Positions 6,196 to 42,005 of a stretch of 64,000 nucleotides of DNA are shown here, piece by piece; the first letter of the stretch is position 1; each line of letters begins with the position of its first letter. Position numbers and translations under genes: made by a program. The DNA comes from Elusimicrobiota bacterium (GTDB lineage Bacteria > Elusimicrobiota > Elusimicrobia > 2-02-FULL-39-32), in contig JACPBF010000001.1 of NCBI GenBank assembly GCA_016180425.1, positions 264,744 to 328,743 of the forward strand. The letters run 5' to 3'. The notes beneath the pieces are model-generated. The model did not search any database. It had not been told where the DNA came from and was given only the letters and a program-made list of their open reading frames with translations.

Positions 6196-6907
6196 CTATT
6201 GGAAGTATGGCTCCTGTCATAAAATCCGTGCCTTCAATACAGAATAAAACCGCATTGGCAATATCTTCTGGAGAGCCAATTCTTTTTAAGGGGGTCGCTT
6301 TTAAAATAGCTGCTTTTATTTTTGGACCCCAATCCTTTTGTAAAAGCACAGGTCCAGGAGAGATTCCATTCACTTGCACATAAGGCGCAAGTTCTTTGGC
6401 CAGGCAATAGGTTAAACCCACCATGCCGGATTTAGAAACTAAATAAGGCAGATAATGTTTGTAAGGTTTATGAGTATCTGAATCAATAATATTAATAATT
6501 TTACCAGATCTATTTTTTAACATCCCTTTGGCAACTGCTTGCGAAAGAAAAAAAGGAGCTTTTAAATTTGTATTTAAATGCTGGTCCCAAAGATCTTCTC
6601 TGATCTCTCCAAATCTAGCTTCTTCATAAACTGAGGCTGAGTTCACCAAAATATCAATGCGTCCAAAAATTGTCAAAGCCTCTTTTACCATTTGCAAGCA
6701 GTCTTGGCTGGATGCCAGGTCTGCTTTAAGCGCGCAGGCTTTCCTTCCAATTTTTTTAATTTCAAGAACAGTTTTTTCAGCCTCTTTTTTAGAATCTTTA
6801 TAATGAATAATGAGGTTTGCGCCTCTTTTGGCAAGAGCAAGGGCAATTGTTTTGCCAACTCGTTTTGCGCTGCCAGTGACCATGGCAACTCTATTTTTTA
6901 ATTGCAT
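6173..6907 (-). CDS. SDR-family pteridine reductase (PTR1/FolM-like)
   Basis: This 244-residue short-chain dehydrogenase carries TGSAKRVG near the N-terminus, i.e. the TGxxxRxG nucleotide motif diagnostic of pteridine reductases in place of the usual TGxxxGxG. The active-site stretch has Asp at the position where other SDRs have the catalytic Ser (IDSDTHKP) and then YLVSK, giving the Asp-Tyr-Lys arrangement of PTR1. The NSASVYE segment and the ISPGPV segment are standard SDR features. PTR1 and FolM reduce dihydrobiopterin/dihydromonapterin to the tetrahydro forms with NADPH. Its place between queC (17-base overlap) and the methyltransferase and queD suggests a pterin-handling operon. A general FabG-like activity is the alternative. 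Confidence 0.82.
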   Translation of the reverse strand: MQLKNRVAMVTGSAKRVGKTIALALAKRGANLIIHYKDSKKEAEKTVLEIKKIGRKACALKADLASSQDCLQMVKEALTIFGRIDILVNSASVYEEARFGEIREDLWDQHLNTNLKAPFFLSQAVAKGMLKNRSGKIINIIDSDTHKPYKHYLPYLVSKSGMVGLTYCLAKELAPYVQVNGISPGPVLLQKDWGPKIKAAILKATPLKRIGSPEDIANAVLFCIEGTDFMTGAILPIDGGQHIE

Positions 6908-7508
6908 AAAGCGGATCCTTTACTCCCGCAAGTGTAAACCCATCTTCGCGCTCCTTACAAGACTTACAGTTCCAACAATGTACTGACCCATCCAACGAAC
7001 AGCTCCAAGTAACCTGAAATGGCACTTTTAGTTTTTCTCCTAACTTAATAATCTCATCTTTGCTGGAACGAATCAAGGGAAAAAGCAAGGAAGGTCCTAT
7101 CTTATTTTTTGATCCGGATTGAATTAAATGATTCAAGGATTCAAAATACTTTTCTCTTGCATCAAAAAAAACCTTGCCATCATGTTTGCAATGGCCTCCT
7201 AAGATGCTGTTTGCCTGAATTTTTTCTGCAAGAGAGGCTGCGATCCCATAATACATTAAATTTCTTTTAGGAATATAGCAGGACTCTTCACTTTTTGGGG
7301 AATCTAAAAACGATAAATTTAAATCAAAATTTTCTTTACAGCCAACAAGCTTACGCAGTTTTTGAGCGGCTTCTATCTCTTTTTTTCTTCTGCCTTTAAA
7401 ATAAAAAGAAAGGGTTGCCAAATTCCAACCTTTAGATCTTGCCCACCACAAAACTACAGATGAATCTATGCCGCCTGAAAGCACCACCAGCGCTTTTTTT
7501 TTCAACAT
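6891..7508 (-). CDS. queC: 7-cyano-7-deazaguanine (preQ0) synthase
   Basis: QueC uses ATP and ammonia to turn 7-carboxy-7-deazaguanine into preQ0. The N-terminal PP-loop LSGGIDSSV and the C-terminal zinc site (Cys in TWSCSLDG, then CWNCKSC) are both present; the protein is 205 residues, slightly short but complete. I chose the ATG at 7508, not the one 15 bases upstream at 7523. A GGAAGGG sequence sits 7 bases before 7508, whereas nothing comparable precedes 7523. It lies 44 bases from the long inverted repeat that separates it from comEC, and overlaps the pteridine reductase gene by 17 bases. Confidence 0.92.
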   Translation of the reverse strand: MLKKKALVVLSGGIDSSVVLWWARSKGWNLATLSFYFKGRRKKEIEAAQKLRKLVGCKENFDLNLSFLDSPKSEESCYIPKRNLMYYGIAASLAEKIQANSILGGHCKHDGKVFFDAREKYFESLNHLIQSGSKNKIGPSLLFPLIRSSKDEIIKLGEKLKVPFQVTWSCSLDGSVHCWNCKSCKEREDGFTLAGVKDPLYAIKK

Positions 7509-7551
7509 GCTTTTCCCTTCCATTTAACGAAAATTTTACCATTGGTTCTAA

Positions 7552-7776
7552 ACAAGATCAACTAAAAACTAATGCAAAGGGATTTGTTGGTTTCTTCGCT
7601 TGGGCGACTAAACCGGAGATTTAATTTTGTTCACCGGCCAGCAAACTCCTCGTCACGACTTCGTCGTGACTCGTCAAACAAGCTGGCCGAAGGCGTTCAC
7701 AAAATTAAATCTCCAAGTCGCCAAAGCGCTTTAGAAACCAACAAATCCCTTTGCATTAGTTTTTAGTTGATCTTGT
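7552..7776. repeat. 225-bp long-stem inverted repeat between comEC and queC
   Basis: Bases 7552-7595 are the exact reverse complement of 7733-7776 (44 bp). Inside, a second matched block (GGAGATTTAATTTTGT, 7615-7630, against its complement at about 7699-7714) and a third (GGCCAGC/GCTGGCC) follow. The centre holds GTCACGAC-TTC-GTCGTGAC. The mismatched parts between the blocks are related but differ by small indels. The last codons and stop of comEC lie in the right arm. No transposase is present. It could be a non-autonomous element of MITE or large REP type, or a transcribed insulating hairpin; the sequence alone does not decide. Confidence 0.9.
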
Positions 7777-10128
7777 CTTGATTTCAAATGATTTTCCGTC
7801 AGTAATACATTCAATAGCCCCGCAAAACCCTGTTTGATAAAGGGCGCATCCAAAATTCTTTAAAAAATTCAAAGTTAGAGGCGAGGGAAGATGATAAGTG
7901 TTATTCTCTGATTCACTGATAATAACTGCTTCCGGCTGCGCATGAGTTACAAATTCTTCTTCAGACTTATTTTCATAACTTCCATGATGAGGAATTTTTA
8001 AAATTTTACTTTTTAATTTCTCTTTTAAACATTTTAATTGGCTCAAAGCCTTTTCTTCTATATCCCCTGTCATGAGCAGAGAAAACTGGCCAACTTCAAG
8101 TTTAAAAACAATGGATTGGTCATTAGGACCTTTAGTTGGATCTTCTAACACTCTTTTGTAAGGATAGAGGATGTCTAACCTCGCTTCGCCAAATCCAAGG
8201 ATTTGATCTCCTGATTTTAAAATCTGACGTTCCAGCGATCTATTTTTGAAAATAGTTTCATAGTCATAGGAGGTTCTATCTCCATTATCGAATAACCGCT
8301 TTACTTTAAATTCATTTAAAAGATACCTTACCCCTCCATAATGATCCAGATGGGGATGAGTAATCAAAATTGCGTCTAGTGTGTTAATCCCTTTTGATCT
8401 TAAAAATGGAGCGATTGTGATCCGTCCCTGGTCTAAAATCCCGCCAGAGCCGCAATCTACAAGAAGATTTCCTTTGTTGGGGAATTCAAAAAAAATTGAA
8501 TCTCCATGACCCACATCTAAGAATGTTATTTTAAGTTTTTGGGTCTCAGAATTTAGCAACTCTTTCCAAAATAAAAAATTGGCTATGCAGAGAATTAGAA
8601 TTAAGAATTTTAAAACGGAACTTTTTAAAAAATTTCTAAAAATATAAATAAAAATCAGTCCATAAAATAACAAAATGGCTAAAATAGGAGGAGGCTTCAC
8701 ATGGATATAGGCATAAGGAAAACTGGCAAAAACTTTACATAACCAAATTAAAATTCTAGTTAAAAAATCCAAGGAAAGAGCTAAAGTATCCGCAAAAAAA
8801 TTATTTAAAGAGCCAAAAATAAGCCAGAAAAACCCTCCTGTAATCACAAAAGAAAAATAGGGCACTGTAAAAATGTTGGACAAAATAGCGACTGGGTTCC
8901 ATAGATAAAAATAATAGGCGATCAATGGCATGACTCCAATCCAGGCTACAAAAGAGGTTAAAAATATCTGTTTTAAAGAAAAGAATGTTTTCCCTAAAAT
9001 GGTTCTTGAAAATTTATCAGAAATATTTTTTTCTTGGGGAGGAATAAGAGTCAATAATGCGAAAACCGTAATATAAGAAAATTGAAAACCAGGATCAAAA
9101 AGCTGAAAAGGATCAAAAATTAAAATAAAAATAGCTGACCAGGAAAAAGAGACCATTGCTTCTCCATCCTGTTTTAAAATAAGACCCAAAAAATAGGCGC
9201 ATGCCATGAACGTTGCTCGCAAAATACTTGAGCTCCATCCAGTTAAAAGACAATAAAAAATCAAAGCAACAAGTGTAACAAAATAGGAAAACCTTTTAGG
9301 AAATGAAAACCATTTTAGAAACAAAAGTAAAAGCCCGGAAAGCAGCGCGATATTGCCTCCGGAAATGGCCAATAAATGAGCGCTTCCGCTTTTCACAAAA
9401 TCATCTTTAATTTCAAAAGGGATATTTTTCTGGTCGCCTAAAAGCAAAGCGCTGACCACTGAATTTTGAGGGGGAGGAATATTTTTATTAATCATCTTGA
9501 TCAAATGCCAGCGCAATTTTCCAATAAAAGCTAAGATAAAATTTCCTTTTCCTCTGGCAAGAAGCAGCGTGTCTCTTTTTTCCTTAAGATGAACCCATGC
9601 AAAAATCCCTTCTCTTTCAAAATAAGCTTCTGTATTAAAACTCCCCGGATTCCTTGATTCTTGAGGTTTTTTAAGCTCTCCTTTTATAAGCAGCTCATCC
9701 CCATATTGCAAATCAAAATCTGGTTTAGGCAGAGAAACTAAAAGGGTTTGATCGAACCTAAACCAGAACTGTCTCCCTATTTTTCTATCGCATTTAAATT
9801 TAAAACGGACTTTTGTTCCATGGGGAGAGAGAATTTCTGAAGGAAAAGAAGAAATTCTTCCAATAAAATAAGTGGAGCCTAAATTTAAATCTTCCTTTAA
9901 TCTTTTTGCTTTTTCAAAAGTGCAGTTCATTCCCAATACTATTAAAGACAATCCAATAAACAAATAATAAAGTTTTAAATATTTTGAGAATAAAAAGGCT
10001 AAAAGAAAAAGGATAAAATTAAGAAATATTAAAAATGCAAATCCAACTTTTAAGACATGAGCCAAAACAATGCCGGAAGATATAAGAAGAACAAAAATAA
10101 AAGGAGGGTATTTCAAAGTCCTATCCAT
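7756..10128 (-). CDS. comEC: ComEC/Rec2 DNA-uptake channel with metallo-beta-lactamase-type domain
   Basis: ComEC forms the inner-membrane channel that takes up single-stranded DNA in transformation. The 790-residue protein shows the three-part layout: N-terminal membrane segments with a soluble DUF4131-like loop, a central competence domain (LLLGDQKNIP and the AISGGNIALLSGLLL segment, then many helices), and a C-terminal MBL-fold domain starting near FLDVGHGDS with the metal motif HPHLDH. A late GDIEEK and PHHGSY complete the MBL signature. The last codons and the TAA stop lie in the right arm of the inverted repeat, so the original C-terminus may have been altered by insertion of that element. 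comEA lies upstream on the same strand, 125 bases away. Confidence 0.93.
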   Translation of the reverse strand: MDRTLKYPPFIFVLLISSGIVLAHVLKVGFAFLIFLNFILFLLAFLFSKYLKLYYLFIGLSLIVLGMNCTFEKAKRLKEDLNLGSTYFIGRISSFPSEILSPHGTKVRFKFKCDRKIGRQFWFRFDQTLLVSLPKPDFDLQYGDELLIKGELKKPQESRNPGSFNTEAYFEREGIFAWVHLKEKRDTLLLARGKGNFILAFIGKLRWHLIKMINKNIPPPQNSVVSALLLGDQKNIPFEIKDDFVKSGSAHLLAISGGNIALLSGLLLLFLKWFSFPKRFSYFVTLVALIFYCLLTGWSSSILRATFMACAYFLGLILKQDGEAMVSFSWSAIFILIFDPFQLFDPGFQFSYITVFALLTLIPPQEKNISDKFSRTILGKTFFSLKQIFLTSFVAWIGVMPLIAYYFYLWNPVAILSNIFTVPYFSFVITGGFFWLIFGSLNNFFADTLALSLDFLTRILIWLCKVFASFPYAYIHVKPPPILAILLFYGLIFIYIFRNFLKSSVLKFLILILCIANFLFWKELLNSETQKLKITFLDVGHGDSIFFEFPNKGNLLVDCGSGGILDQGRITIAPFLRSKGINTLDAILITHPHLDHYGGVRYLLNEFKVKRLFDNGDRTSYDYETIFKNRSLERQILKSGDQILGFGEARLDILYPYKRVLEDPTKGPNDQSIVFKLEVGQFSLLMTGDIEEKALSQLKCLKEKLKSKILKIPHHGSYENKSEEEFVTHAQPEAVIISESENNTYHLPSPLTLNFLKNFGCALYQTGFCGAIECITDGKSFEIKTRSTKN

Positions 10129-17929: not shown

Positions 17930-17979
17930 TATATAGTTCATGCTGATAAAGTCATTTCTGCATCAGCATGAACTATATA
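17930..17979. repeat. 18-bp-stem hairpin between ribE and ribBA
   Basis: The arm at 17930-17947 (TATATAGTTCATGCTGAT) pairs perfectly with 17962-17979 around a 14-base loop. No T-run follows, so it is not a classical terminator. It may be a processing or stability hairpin in the rib transcript, or an operator. Confidence 0.7.
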
Positions 17980-41933: not shown

Positions 41934-42005
41934 GCGCCTGTAGTGAAATGGATATCACAAGAGCCTCCGAAGCTCTTAATCCGGGTTCAAATCCCGGCGG
42001 GCGCA
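41934..42005 (+). tRNA. tRNA-Arg (anticodon CCG)
   Basis: The 72-nt sequence folds as a full cloverleaf: acceptor GCGCCTG/CGGGCGC (one G-U), D stem GTGA/TCAC, anticodon stem AGAGC/GCTCT with loop CTCCGAA (anticodon CCG at 41967-41969), four-base variable loop, T stem CCGGG/CCCGG with TTCAAAT, and discriminator A. CCA is not encoded. The 5' end follows alaS's TAA with no gap, so it is probably cut by RNase P from an alaS read-through transcript, or has its own promoter inside alaS. Confidence 0.93.

Follow-up and report, generated by a model that had tools for sequence, protein, structure and literature searches.

How do the two arms of a long palindrome stay exactly complementary when one of them reaches into a protein-coding gene, and what might such a structure do between two genes? 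The question is raised by a 225-bp inverted repeat in a 64,000-nucleotide stretch of DNA from an uncultured Elusimicrobiota bacterium (the whole stretch analysed is called the window), where the 232-bp spacer between comEC and queC consists almost entirely of the palindrome. The answer we favour, with a probability of roughly 0.55, is that this is a palindromic element at a gene 3′ end whose arms have been homogenised and whose core has been flipped by replication template switching, and that it serves as a hairpin in the RNA, or as an insulator, separating comEC from queC.

The palindrome and its surroundings

An earlier note, made from the sequence alone, had described a long-stem inverted repeat at 7552–7776 with the stop and last six codons of comEC inside its right arm. 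Both points are confirmed, the latter by the ORF end at 7756–7776 (Table 1). Over 44/44 bases the outer arms pair exactly as reverse complements, and they remain 96% complementary when extended to 49; the inner blocks pair at 16/16, and the core is imperfect. With spacers of up to 400 allowed, no other exact inverted repeat in the window is as long as the 44-base one; the runner-up measures 18, and the maximum in shuffled windows was 15 (n=20). The predicted RNA fold reaches −136.3 kcal/mol on the + strand (z −18.2) and −146.0 kcal/mol on the comEC strand (z −19.8), with none of 200 shuffles equalling the value in either case. Scanning with Rfam 15 returned nothing at the element above the gathering score, the best being FasX at 26.9 bits against a required 100, and the sole match above gathering score in the whole window was a tRNA at 41934. 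We also considered the apical loop as hammerhead-like and set this idea aside, Rfam giving it no support.

Table 1. Positions of the palindrome, its parts and the two neighbouring genes in the window
Feature	Position	Strand	Remarks
queC	6891..7523	-	PF06508 QueC (Pfam)
Promoter-like site upstream of queC	7533..7561	-	TTGATC-17-TAAAAT, TG before second hexamer
Outer arm, left (queC side)	7552..7595		44 bp, exact complement of right arm
Core, left edge (TCGCTTGGGCGACTAAACC)	7596..7614		18/19 bases follow the comEC arm in the sister genome
Inner arm, left	7615..7630		16 bp, exact
Apical stem-loops	7635..7689		predicted fold
Apical stem CGGCCAGC/GCTGGCCG	7635-7642/7682-7689		predicted fold
Apical stem GTCACGAC/GTCGTGAC	7652-7659/7663-7670		predicted fold
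Inner arm, right	7699..7714		16 bp, exact
Core, right edge	7715..7732		imperfect pairing with 7596-7614 (predicted fold)
Outer arm, right (comEC side)	7733..7776		44 bp; holds comEC stop 7756-7758 and last 6 codons 7759-7776
comEC	7756..10128	-	DUF4131 - Competence (PF03772) - metallo-beta-lactamase domains (Pfam)

The foot of the queC-side arm contains the first hexamer of the promoter-like site that precedes queC; by chance, 0.8 such sites are expected in the region. The complete site reads identically in a second genome of the same genus (the sister genome, G001), and the bases 7532–7560, which cover nearly all of it, are identical there at 29/29. A terminator scan, which takes loops of 3–8 and cannot score a long hairpin, found no terminator adjoining the palindrome and no canonical U-tract terminator at it, its only match lying inside queC. 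Outside the genus, comEC and queC are separated by 5 bp in one genome (G006) and overlap in another (G003). In a third genus (G005) the spacer measures about 115–160 bp, depending on the start of queC, and holds a nested palindrome (L032:380-509) in which exact 13-bp outer arms surround a 29-bp CGTC-like repeat pair; this palindrome is unrelated to the window element. Different hairpins thus occupy one and the same spacer in the window's genome, the sister genome and G005, which points either to a role for a hairpin at this position or to a spot where insertions are tolerated. Since the spacer is absent from G003 and G006, other hairpins stand in it in G001 and G005, and the distal arm has the promoter-like site at its foot, it is plausible that the hairpin uncouples comEC from queC.

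Copy number, the sister locus and the end of ComEC

The earlier note had also proposed a non-autonomous mobile element present in many copies, and this we reject for the window element. Within its own genome (2.6 Mb in 43 contigs) the 225-bp sequence has no match other than itself, and searches of that genome with the core alone and with the single-arm sequence of the sister genome gave only short matches (E > 0.1). Profile models of the two palindrome families described below (A and B) recovered their own members and produced no match to the window element, nor did searches of plasmid and phage sequences. Among 60 relatives the element is matched in two, namely its own genome and the sister genome, and among 294 genomes of the phylum in four (these two, G070 twice, and G069).

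The match in G070, a distant member of the Elusimicrobiota outside the window's class, concerns the hairpin tip. There, AAACTCCTCGTC-stem-GACTCGTCAAACA recurs with a different stem in a two-copy palindromic repeat (L188, L189). In 340 genomes of the phylum the exact core-motif pattern, which was drawn from these same places, occurs at only three, the window and the two in G070, and we regard the recurrence as a lead. The core motif was also sought in viral contigs and dropped as a candidate there, its 12 matches comparing with about 10 expected by chance (a hand estimate) and none having the apical hairpin of the window. Descent of the window element from a mobile palindrome is possible, since the genome holds a multi-copy palindromic family and the apical motif recurs in G070.

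The sister genome has no empty site: one arm is retained. Its comEC end is followed by an arm with the same sequence, then by the core edge TCGCTTAGGCGACTAAACC and a smaller hairpin that is the sister's own; beyond these lie an insert of about 850 bp and the queC-side flank. On the opposite strand, the insert carries ORFs of DUF2442 and DUF4160 (L029:4468-4945), which appear to have been inserted in or beside the palindrome, and the sequence following the insert is the flank of the window's queC-side arm, identical at 29/29 bases. The rest of the core has been lost or replaced at this locus in the sister. The relation between the two loci is arm-swapped, in that the sister's comEC-side arm together with its core edge is 98% identical over 48 bases to the queC-side arm of the window and 89% identical to its comEC-side arm. 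Aligning the comEC locus with the core flipped gives 55.4, against 43.7 unflipped, on about 19 informative bases, and the agreement of the left core edge with the sequence after the sister's comEC arm (Table 1) suggests an inversion of the core. On the simplest reading, the core was inverted between the two genomes and the copy in the sister was later broken by the insert. Alternatively, only the comEC-side edge diverged in the window's genome, and local divergence at one arm edge could mimic a flip; this alternative stays, since just 19 bases carry the flip signal.

The arm within comEC differs between the two genomes in what it encodes. ComEC ends in KTRSTKN here and in KTMIVSN in the sister, and in an ungapped alignment 11 consecutive bases differ between exactly identical flanks. 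Base for base, the end in the window's genome complements the queC-side arm, and its outer half (ACAAGATCAA) is common to the queC side of the sister. The earlier note had suggested that an element inserted at this place reset the C-terminus. A reset is supported by this comparison in a changed form, as arm copying that probably rewrote the last residues of ComEC. A single copying event is favoured; a gapped alignment, however, lowers the change to about four substitutions and two indels. The direction of copying is read from one outgroup residue, at which G006, whose ComEC ends in RTMLK, sides with the sister.

Other palindromes in the genome

Long palindromes are not confined to the comEC locus. 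In 400 kb of contig C18 together with the window, 17 inverted repeats score at least 16, and a first-order Markov control yields none. Two families were recognised. Family A is a palindromic element of about 168 bp that is multi-copy in both the window's genome and the sister, found at C18:195424 (L077:15424-15591) and about 20 further places; its mean arm identity is 0.91 within 14 copies and 0.75 between them, a mean that keeps two of the 14 rows (L115, L124) with decayed or wrongly found arms. Family B comprises C18:10020-10148, 157284 and 238824-238957, each about 130 bp with a common core of about 65 bases. Within its three copies the arms match perfectly (32/32, 32/32 and 33/33) but between copies they do not, with 21–25 of 34 aligned positions alike (about 62–74%).

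Collinear matches around the palindromes are 90–97% identical between the two genomes (about 3–10% different). The arms are more alike within a locus than neutral divergence predicts, since those at comEC agree at 44/44 in surroundings of 90–97% and those of family B are identical within copies and only about 62–74% alike between them. Homogenisation is not constant, since the sister's ortholog of 10020 has its own arms matched at only 25/32. The idea that arms are fixed-length inverted copies of the flanking DNA was tried and dropped, as 238824 reveals that the arms of family B are homologous and have diverged; it is also contradicted at 157284, where the sister is without both arms.

The ortholog of C18:10020-10148 (129 bp) in the sister has homologous arms and a clearly inverted core, the flipped alignment giving 125.0 against 68.5. 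A wider flip test began with the first 380 kb of C18, where 34 inverted repeats were found; 21 of them were mappable and had a core of at least 15 bases. Fifteen of these are present in the sister, four absent, one odd (235469, absent by position) and one too far. Flipped alignment was better for two of the 15 (10020 and comEC) and worse for 13, the low-scoring repeats serving as a natural control; where the score is at least 20, two of the three present repeats flip and 183147 does not. At this unflipped locus (C18:183147-183222) both arms carry matched changes relative to the sister (CATTCTAATAAAG vs CATGCTGATAAAG), which turn the end of the adjacent gene from ...SSF-TAA to ...SSC-TGA. Palindromes at 2229, 157284, 195424, 235469, 238824 and 450547 are missing at the orthologous position in the sister, with a short remnant seemingly left at 238824.

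The long palindromes of C18 lie preferentially at gene 3′ ends. Of 17, 12 are within 30 bp of an ORF 3′ end, where random placement in gaps gives a mean of 5.3 and never reaches 12 in 300 trials, although this null is approximate, with crude ORFs and palindromes pooled from several scans. Six overlap the ORF end by 1–21 bases, and none of the 17 lies between two divergent ORFs. Such placement agrees with the account given of REP elements (PMC3733652).

At C18:195424 it is the family A copy that provides the upstream ORF with its stop codon. Both genomes contain another ComEC-type C-terminal domain, about 40% identical (C1:66853-67746 in the window's genome, C13:62706-63824 in the sister), the match in the sister having five stop codons and a family A copy near its end. 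Small hairpins with TTCATGCTGATAAAG-like sequence occur in the window at 17930-17979 and at C18:183147, 515649 and 523210, and probably constitute another small palindromic family.

Mechanism, rival explanations and known systems

We suggest the following course of events. The seed would have been, probably, a mobile REP/RPE-like palindrome, now single-copy, present in or before the ancestor of the genus. During replication the nascent strand would anneal to the opposite arm, and such a template switch would copy one arm onto the other, keeping the arms perfect despite their reach into comEC, and could also invert the core. It was probably by one such copy that the last residues of ComEC were replaced. 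In the RNA, a hairpin of about 90 bp would form the end of the comEC transcript, protecting or processing its 3′ end and separating comEC from queC, for which the arm foot may supply a promoter of its own. What we infer, from comparison of two close genomes (the window's own and the sister), is that template switching is the agent, which way the copying went and what the RNA does. As a variant, the whole palindrome may have arisen de novo from a single hairpin like that of the sister, which would also be a template switch.

Selection on the RNA by itself, with a functional 3′-end hairpin maintained through ordinary compensatory substitutions and no template switching, would accord with the placement of palindromes at gene 3′ ends and with the differing hairpins in the same spacer of three genomes. 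It leaves unexplained the inverted core at 10020 and the arm-swapped similarity at comEC, and perfect matching over 32–44 bp exceeds what a hairpin needs, G-U pairs being tolerable in one; we consider it unlikely. Rather improbable, in our view, is a recent non-autonomous transposable element of the MITE or REP type with long terminal inverted repeats, the other copies of which were lost or diverged. Families A and B, with their element-free sites in the sister, and the apical motif in the two-copy repeat of G070 speak for such an element, yet the window element is single-copy, is matched by neither family model and by no plasmid or phage sequence, and has no target-site duplication recognisable by eye at 7547–7551/7777–7781. 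A recent insertion specific to the window's genome is furthermore contradicted by the sister, which shares one arm and both flanks.

A site-specific switch of the inverton type, in which recombinase-driven flipping of the core between the arms would control queC or comEC, would fit the inverted core at one other locus and the probable inversion at comEC. The arms of the two flipped loci are wholly different, so that they offer no common recombination site, and the sole promoter-like site lies at the arm foot, outside the core, where flipping would not move it; we hold this to be very improbable. Nor do we give much more than passing credence to an artefact, in which the assembler of this metagenome-derived genome made the orientation or an arm. 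The assembly comprises 43 contigs, and assemblers can get the orientation across repeats wrong, but a fold-back would be perfect throughout and the core is imperfect. Moreover, the separately assembled sister has one arm, both flanks and a portion of the core edge, and the palindrome is therefore not simply an assembly fold-back. The 129 bp of the palindrome at 10020 are short enough for single reads of usual length.

If template switching is the right reading, the comparison of two sister genomes reveals both of its hallmark outcomes, the homogenisation of arms and the inversion of spacers, in a natural bacterial setting, and its arms and cores greatly exceed in length those of the yeast cases cited below. 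The locus would also show, concretely, how noncoding sequence can decide the way a protein ends. Long RNA-like hairpins could then stay perfect without selection on each base pair, a warning that covariation of arms should not on its own be taken for evidence of RNA function. More tentatively, the genus may carry a population of long, self-homogenising and invertible 3′-end hairpins that insulate neighbouring genes and whose arms, where they reach into genes, repeatedly rewrite the last codons and stop; if true, this would be a mutational route for C-terminal diversification.

The mechanism itself is already known elsewhere, and our addition to it is a genus of bacteria in which the arms and cores, located at the ends of genes, are unusually long. 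Template switching between the arms of inverted repeats is described in E. coli as quasipalindrome correction (PMC7202029), and has been described as creating and maintaining RNA stems (PMC8794818). In the literature consulted we recognised no bacterial or Elusimicrobia case of this kind, which is a weak negative. The closest likeness is to the yeast genes described in PMC8604942, where template switching between inverted-repeat arms homogenises the arms and inverts the spacers, with clustered amino-acid changes. Homogenised arms are found here too, together with a clear core inversion at 10020, a probable and partial one at comEC, and, where an arm is coding, a cluster of changes at the ComEC end that fits copying of the other arm but can also be aligned with gaps. 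The yeast spacer inversions reported there have arms of 10–16 bp and spacers of 2–5 bp and lie inside genes (PMC8604942), whereas the Elusimicrobiota palindromes have arms of 32–44 bp and cores of 65–137 bp and lie at gene 3′ ends in an uncultured bacterium.

The small inversions of plastids described in PMC6824564 are alike in being intergenic stem-loops, thought to stabilise mRNA, whose loop flips between relatives while the stem stays; the example given has a 9-bp stem and a 5-bp loop (PMC6824564), and the stems and cores here are far longer and lie on a bacterial chromosome. Family A, the MITE-like family of this genus, shares with the window element the long palindrome, the perfect outer stem and the position at gene ends, but is multi-copy with shared ends and has no detectable similarity to it. 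GTAG/CGTC-tagged REPs, dRS3 and RPE, as presented in PMC3733652, are likewise palindromic, lie mostly between co-directional or convergent genes and often overlap gene ends, and the CGTC-like dimer in the comEC-queC spacer of G005 is akin to REPs so described (PMC3733652). Those repeats are 20–40 bp long and high-copy (PMC3733652), whereas the window element, at 225 bp and one copy, falls outside REPs and CGTC-tagged repeats as defined by that size, high copy number and an unpaired CGTC or GTAG tag; the CGTC at its apical stem is at most a putative tag.
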